This document shows, piece after piece, positions 4,500 to 4,761 of a DNA stretch of 40,073 nt (positions are counted from its first letter, which is position 1; each line of letters starts with the position of its first letter). This stretch comes from Helicobacteraceae bacterium. GTDB lineage: Bacteria > Campylobacterota > Campylobacteria > Campylobacterales > SZUA-545. The stretch is from positions 1-40,073 of the forward strand of contig JAIRKM010000073.1 of assembly GCA_031260125.1 (NCBI GenBank). Reading direction: 5' to 3'. A program made the translations under genes and the position numbers. Below the pieces are notes generated by a model. It was not told the DNA's origin and searched no databases. It saw nothing but the letters and a program-made list of their open reading frames with translations.

Positions 4500-4761
4500 T
4501 GAAAAATCTAAGAAAGCCGGTGCGCAAGCAGCCATGAACGTCTTAGGAAATCAGATTGATATTGACTACGCAAAAACATCAAATACAAATCTGCTTTATG
4601 GTTCAAATTACCAAAGCGACAGACTTGAAAAACTAGGTTGGAAACCCTCCCTCCCTTCTCTCTCTCTCTCTCTCTCTCTCTCTCTCTGGAGAGAACGCTT
4701 TTGTCTTTTACGCAACAATGATCTTTTTAACCGCGCGATCTTTAGAAAGATTGCGTCATGA
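4500..4761 (+). pseudogene. Remnant of an SDR nucleotide-sugar gene (start and C-terminus kept, middle lost)
   Basis: A strong ribosome-binding site (AAGGAG, from about 4486) precedes ATG 4500, but that frame opens only 12 codons before TGA. A different frame, open from TTG 4477, carries what looks like the C-terminal end of an SDR: a segment around 4540-4640 ending in LEKLGWKP, the same element that closes the intact SDR at 1005. A CT tract follows. After it the conserved-looking ending LERTLLSFTQQ is readable only in a third frame and stops at 4721. The frame in use before the tract runs on to TGA 4761, overlapping the next gene as ATGA. I read this as a gene that lost most of its body by internal deletion. 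Confidence 0.6.
4657..4687 (+). repeat. TC dinucleotide tract, 15.5 units
   Basis: Uninterrupted (TC)15T between the LGWKP element and the LERTLLSF ending of the SDR remnant. Loss of one unit, or gain of two, would join the two in one frame. It is the longest dinucleotide run in the window and lies about 70 bases before the start of the next gene. Confidence 0.9.

Follow-up and report, generated by a model that had tools for sequence, protein, structure and literature searches.

A TC repeat tract in the conserved C-terminal element of an SDR gene remnant: a candidate for C-terminal phase variation in the Helicobacteraceae

Genes and repeat tracts at the locus

The window (the whole stretch of 40,073 nucleotides that was analysed) is contig 64 of a source genome of 1.64 Mb in 87 contigs. 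Judged from its sequence, the first 10 kb looks like a nucleotide-sugar/surface-polysaccharide locus. An intact extended SDR gene (SDR1, PF01370; 1005-2144, plus strand), which serves as comparison gene and overlaps the start at 2141 by ATGA, is followed by a DXS/transketolase-like gene (2703-4496), by the last part of another SDR gene (4534-4761, plus strand) and by a short SDR gene, SDR2 (4758-5603, plus strand), with an open frame of 281 codons. Further along lie a GT8-family gene (5829-7847), RfbH (7867-9246, scoring above its NCBIfam cut-off) and one of the two RmlC-like genes of the locus (9398-9934). There is also a truncated rmlC copy at 5621-5760, of which a longer version (L032:134-637) exists in G006, the MAG of Helicobacteraceae bacterium isolate Iy174_bin57, and the start of a dehydratase-like gene at 9249-9410 (PF01370 match at 9264-9413). 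With these pieces, the locus resembles a mosaic of gene ends.

Four CT/AG tracts were found in the locus. Apart from the one in the SDR remnant (4657-4687), these are T1, a (CT)13C tract in SDR1 (2057-2083, plus strand), and an (AG)13A tract in the last codons of the RmlC-like gene (9880-9906, plus strand), both near 3' ends, together with an (AG)7A tract at the 5' end of RfbH, within its first codons (7880-7894, plus strand), for which tracts with similar flanks occur in genomes G009 and G011. A chance origin of the remnant's tract is ruled out by dinucleotide shuffles of the window, which give a mean of 0.00 TC runs of 14 bases (100 shuffles), compared to 24 overlapping matches observed, from four tracts.

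The tract in the remnant, (TC)15T at 4657-4687 (plus strand), forms part of a 43-base pyrimidine stretch (4645-4687) that extends from AAA to GGAGAG, and it lies between the peptide elements LGWKP and LERTLLSFTQQ. An earlier note on this DNA had described these elements as separated by frame and joined by the loss of one unit, which the frames confirm: LGWKP is read at positions with remainder 1 modulo 3 and LERTLLSFTQQ at remainder 0, its stop ending at 4721 (ERTLLSFTQQ and stop occupy 4689-4721 on the plus strand, the preceding L spanning the tract end), and with one unit fewer both fall into one frame. In the present phase, the LGWKP frame passes through the tract and continues for 23 more codons (WRERFCLLRNNDLFNRAIFRKIAS) to a stop at 4759-4761, which overlaps the ATG of SDR2 at 4758 (ATGA); this stop-start overlap is absent from the earlier note. 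With one unit more, the frame would run for 59 further codons and stop 109 bases beyond the start at 4758. By reading frame alone, the three tract phases in the window lead to three different endings.

The remnant retains residues 265-338 and lacks about 264 of the 338 residues of the gene product. It matches no Pfam family at E 0.001, and the N-terminal Rossmann part is absent, so that the window copy makes no whole SDR in any phase of the tract.

C-terminal element and full-length gene

The earlier note had placed the tract inside a conserved C-terminal motif and had named, as an observation that would speak against this, homologues in which LGWKP and LERT are never adjacent. In alignment A2, which comprises 27 of the 29 loci outside G006, 8 further relatives and SDR1 of the window, the distance from LGW (or its equivalent) to the last helix is constant and free of repeats in 35 of 36 rows, so that the placement holds. 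The 36th row, L195, is a site wrongly picked by the regular expression, and L195 itself is in register. Two loci were excluded, L200 (in register) and L204 (a partial match at E 7e-6, motif not shown). Relatives beyond the eight taken are weaker matches; among those read, the LGW motif is missing from L159, and a poly-G run terminates L161. Alignment A1 also has a fixed distance from LGW to the last helix without a repeat.

The 12th residue after the W is R in 25, N in 5, H in 4 and K in 2 of the 36 rows, with an exact RT in 11, and in the remnant LGW is present while the RT element is present but out of frame. When the three frames that follow the tract were scored against a profile, LERTLLSF was best with 7.3 (the others having 3.8 and -3.8), a value reached by 30 of 2000 shuffles. 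As a profile built with all rows flatters its members (11.4-30.1), leave-one-out scoring was used for comparison, and the LERT frame then outscores 5 of the 35 rows in correct register. The LERT element is a moderate match to the last helix of the family. As the best scoring of the three frames, with five members scoring lower, LERTLLSF is probably, but not certainly, the old ending of the gene.

A search with the remnant of 59 genomes, including its own, gave a match at E <= 1 in 14. The sole strong match outside its own genome is in G006 (E 1.8e-36, 92% over residues 12-94), where the open frame around it has 346 codons; the runner-up has E 0.00995. The window thus holds the 3' end of a gene that is whole in G006, in agreement with its earlier description as an SDR remnant. 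The full-length protein matches a UDP-glucuronate decarboxylase chain (2b69_A, E 1.1e-27). Among 298 genomes of the order, evenly drawn, 10 match it at E 1e-30 and none comes close to G006, the best other match having 45% over residues 79-275.

In the G006 gene, LGWK (W293 in a translation of 323 residues) is immediately followed by (CT)7 within a 16-base pyrimidine stretch, and the gene ends in LGWKSSLSLWRERF...KIAS. A full-length version and tract-length alleles at the same site, for which a search had been advised in the earlier note, are therefore at hand. The two alleles known, which represent variation at the species level, are 43 bases (window) and 16 bases (G006) long; they differ by 27 bases and are in the same phase, both being read to WRERF...KIAS and the ATGA overlap with the next SDR gene, and therefore neither is in the LERT phase. 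As an interpretation, the remnant and the position of the tract in a conserved element stand, but the alleles show no switching into the LERT ending. The spacing in homologues would, by arithmetic, equal a stretch of 26 bases, shorter than that of the window and longer than that of G006.

Only one of the 111 bases before the tract differs between the window and G006, compared to 27 bases in the length of the pyrimidine stretch, from which it follows that the stretch changes far faster than its flank. The 37 codons before the tract have dN 0.011 and dS 0.0 (one change, which makes dN/dS uninformative), and the two differences that follow it favour no particular frame as the one under selection. 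The SDR remnant, SDR2 and the rmlC remnant are part of a segment (4512-5740, plus strand) shared with G006 (C92) at 94.5% identity, compared to 79-84% for another four blocks within the first 12 kb. For SDR2 of the window and G006, dN is 0.020 and dS 0.045; as a scale, dS is about 2 for SDR1 against G009 and G010 (not G006). On the strength of these identities and the dS of SDR2, we regard the block 4512-5740 as a recent import or exchange, with a left edge that cuts the SDR gene.

AlphaFold2 models were made from the unchanged translations of the G006 SDR and SDR1. That of the G006 SDR has a mean pLDDT of 85.8. Its poorest part, residues 301-310, follows the tract (under 50), and the tail helix has 56-64; two weaker loops elsewhere have block means of 60 (51-60) and 56 (271-280). 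In the model of SDR1 (mean pLDDT 87.6, block 301-310 weak at 49) the last helix starts at residue 330, and a poor tail starts at about 351, which is where T1 begins. The 2057 tract starts where the last helix ends, while that at 4657 lies before it. Models and tract positions together suggest that the 2057 tract alters mainly a loose tail, whereas the 4657 tract precedes and replaces the last helix. The earlier note had cited SDR1 as a gene in which the same two elements adjoin without a tract; this is correct for the space between them, but T1 follows shortly after. T1 has 27 bases in the window and 29 in the G009 orthologue (L130:2895-2923), and the two differ in phase: the frame ends in the ATGA overlap in the window and 31 bases beyond the next start in G009. 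In G010, a CTCG repeat takes the place of the tract.

CT/AG tracts in the family

A search of 14 family genomes, using two boundary patterns that require seven or more CT or AG units, gave 87 places in 8 of the 14 genomes, belonging to two of seven genera. De-duplication by 40-base flanks removed one place each of G009 and G011 and left 85 distinct tracts, the shortest of 14 and the longest of 64 bases. No such tract was present in one genome of the same genus, which is 71% complete. Sites with similar flanks recur with different lengths (27 and 29 bases in SDR1; 15, 19 and 20 bases in RfbH). One tract-bearing gene recurs in five genomes; Pfam identifies it as a methyltransferase in both of those tested. 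Another, PEMT-like according to Pfam in the one copy tested (that of L140), has the TC tract inside the gene in four genomes (L140:3991, L061:1480, L062:1491, L146:3259), and in each of them the frame does not continue across the tract. A loose lipoprotein-signal regular expression, applied without a control, was passed by 20 of the 85 tracts, 10 of these with a start in frame. A codon-usage tally, which is noisy, uses self-set thresholds and gives a rough picture only, indicated coding sequence only after the tract in 27 cases, only before it in 10 and on both sides, on one strand, in 19, the remainder being of mixed strands (16) or without coding signal (13). On sequence, we consider the CT/AG tracts to be a contingency-type set.

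Several further observations concern individual tracts. In G008, an AG37 tract (L074:1502) is found immediately 5' of an ORF for a DNA methylase (PF01555), and this methylase is possibly phase-variable. The CT tracts at L121:4921, L117:1-1488 and L126:3294 precede GLUG-motif ORFs (PF07581) with a lipobox-like stretch, and encode Ser-Leu repeats in the signal-peptide region. The lineage also has a poly-G tract, 27 consecutive G close to where an SDR-like reading frame of G011 ends (L154:3298). Among the tract flanks (e.g. L138, L139, L085, L094), an upstream group of 16 is split over several downstream groups; with flanks mixed between loci in this way, the tracts behave as if they were crossover points. 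From isolate names alone, one might guess at a termite-gut habitat of the lineage; a search of the open-licence literature found no related paper on termite-gut Helicobacteraceae MAGs.

Interpretation and comparison with known systems

Of several possible explanations, we favour, as probably correct, one where the tract is a contingency repeat in a surface-polysaccharide-type locus of a Helicobacteraceae lineage, and serves C-terminal phase variation of a nucleotide-sugar SDR gene. A slipped-strand change in the number of TC units would lead to one of three endings after LGWK, these being the LERTLLSF helix, which is probably the original ending, the WRERF...KIAS tail and the read-on ending, and the catalytic domain would be made whichever of them follows. 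Slippage within the population and a functional difference between the endings are what we infer from this arrangement; two alleles in one non-LERT phase equally fit a gene that has simply lost its old ending. For the SDR in the window the tract would be a relic, because the gene is cut at about 4510, the edge of the recently shared segment, but it can still affect the stop-start overlap with the next gene.

The rival with the best claim, to which we give a somewhat less than even chance, is that the tract is nothing but a relic, a dead gene end where a repeat expands without consequence. This would be in keeping with the extent of the truncation (about 264 of 338 residues), with the failure of the remnant to match a Pfam family at E 0.001 and with the truncated rmlC copy in the same segment. 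However, the full-length gene in G006 bears a tract at the same site, so that an origin in a whole gene is probable. The truncation is also too recent to judge from the 37 codons before the tract (dN 0.011, dS 0.0), and the gene downstream, overlapped by the stop of the remnant, has an open frame of 281 codons.

We consider it rather unlikely, though it may coexist with C-terminal phase variation, that the repeat of the broken upstream SDR still phase-varies the translation of SDR2. The phase of the tract would then decide whether ribosomes stop in the ATGA overlap, short of the SDR2 start or past it, this start being nearly devoid of a Shine-Dalgarno (SD) sequence. Its anti-SD energy is -0.2 kcal/mol, the second weakest of 20 hand-picked plus-strand starts and the same in G006, compared to -8.0 kcal/mol for a strong ribosome-binding stretch (4485-4493, plus strand) that serves the start at 4499. 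From there, a 12-codon ORF (MKNLRKPVRKQP, plus strand, stop at 4535-4537) leads by an ATGA overlap into the ATG of the remnant at 4534. The geometry is similar in the window and G006, with an ATGA overlap as is, a stop 36 and 42 bases short, respectively, with one unit fewer, and a stop 109 bases past in both; and at T1 the window is in the ATGA phase, with the G009 orthologue 31 bases past the start. However, an energy of -0.2 or weaker is found for 33% of the 493 plus-strand ATGs between 101 and 40000 (starts and non-starts alike), bacteria commonly have ATGA overlaps and weak SDs, and any three frames will yield some set of such endings. Furthermore, the start of the remnant at 4534 has an anti-SD score of its own (-5.3), and coupling may be dispensable for the gene that follows SDR1, as it has SD scores of -5.7 in the window, -6.5 in G009 and -2.1 in G010. 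In the open-licence literature we found no paper on repeat-driven phase variation with translational coupling, which is no proof of absence.

It is extremely unlikely that the repeat length or the junction is an assembly error of the window MAG: short-read assemblies can misjudge repeat lengths, and several family tracts lie within 150 bases of an end of the sequence analysed, but ordinary reads can span 31 bases, other genomes also have tracts with similar flanks, and 4512-5740 aligns to G006 in one piece.

C-terminal phase variation is a kind already known. The present case adds a dinucleotide candidate for it in a nucleotide-sugar SDR, here in a truncated copy, from a lineage rich in CT/AG tracts. 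If the coupling to SDR2 were true, a repeat at the end of one gene could serve to phase-vary the gene behind it, and it would be worth re-examining 3' tracts that are now seen as changing only the tail of their own protein.

A review (PMC4235727) mentions repeats at the end of reading frames, with unpredictable effects. For oipA of H. pylori, PMC10564699 describes phase variation by CT repeats in the signal-peptide region. The present tracts resemble it in being CT dinucleotides in a Helicobacter-type bacterium, with 20 of 85 passing the loose lipoprotein-signal expression (run without a control), but the switches there are 5' ON/OFF switches, whereas the tract at 4657 is near a 3' end. In N. 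gonorrhoeae (PMC5320596), a 3' repeat switches the C-terminal residues, for example of NGK_1211, and one frame reaches the next coding sequence. The latter also holds here, but the outcome in Neisseria is a fusion, while no frame fuses to SDR2 and the present one overlaps its start by ATGA. That paper considers dinucleotide repeats unlikely to be phase-variable in Neisseria.

The closest parallel among these systems is in H. canadensis, for which Snyder et al. 2010 (PMC2823697) give eight cases of C-terminal phase variation by 3' repeats. One of these is rfbB (HCAN_0165), an NAD-dependent epimerase/dehydratase with (G)14 at the 3' end, 11-17 in reads, which affects the last helix. The repeat there is poly-G and not a TC dinucleotide, the paper reporting no dinucleotide candidates, and the variation was seen among reads, whereas the present alleles come from assemblies and the window copy is truncated. 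In the full-length SDR of G006, too, the repeat lies near the 3' end of the coding sequence. The two cases are alike in that a sugar-nucleotide SDR-type gene of a Helicobacter-type bacterium has a repeat near its 3' end, with three frames that give three C-termini and an effect on the last helix.
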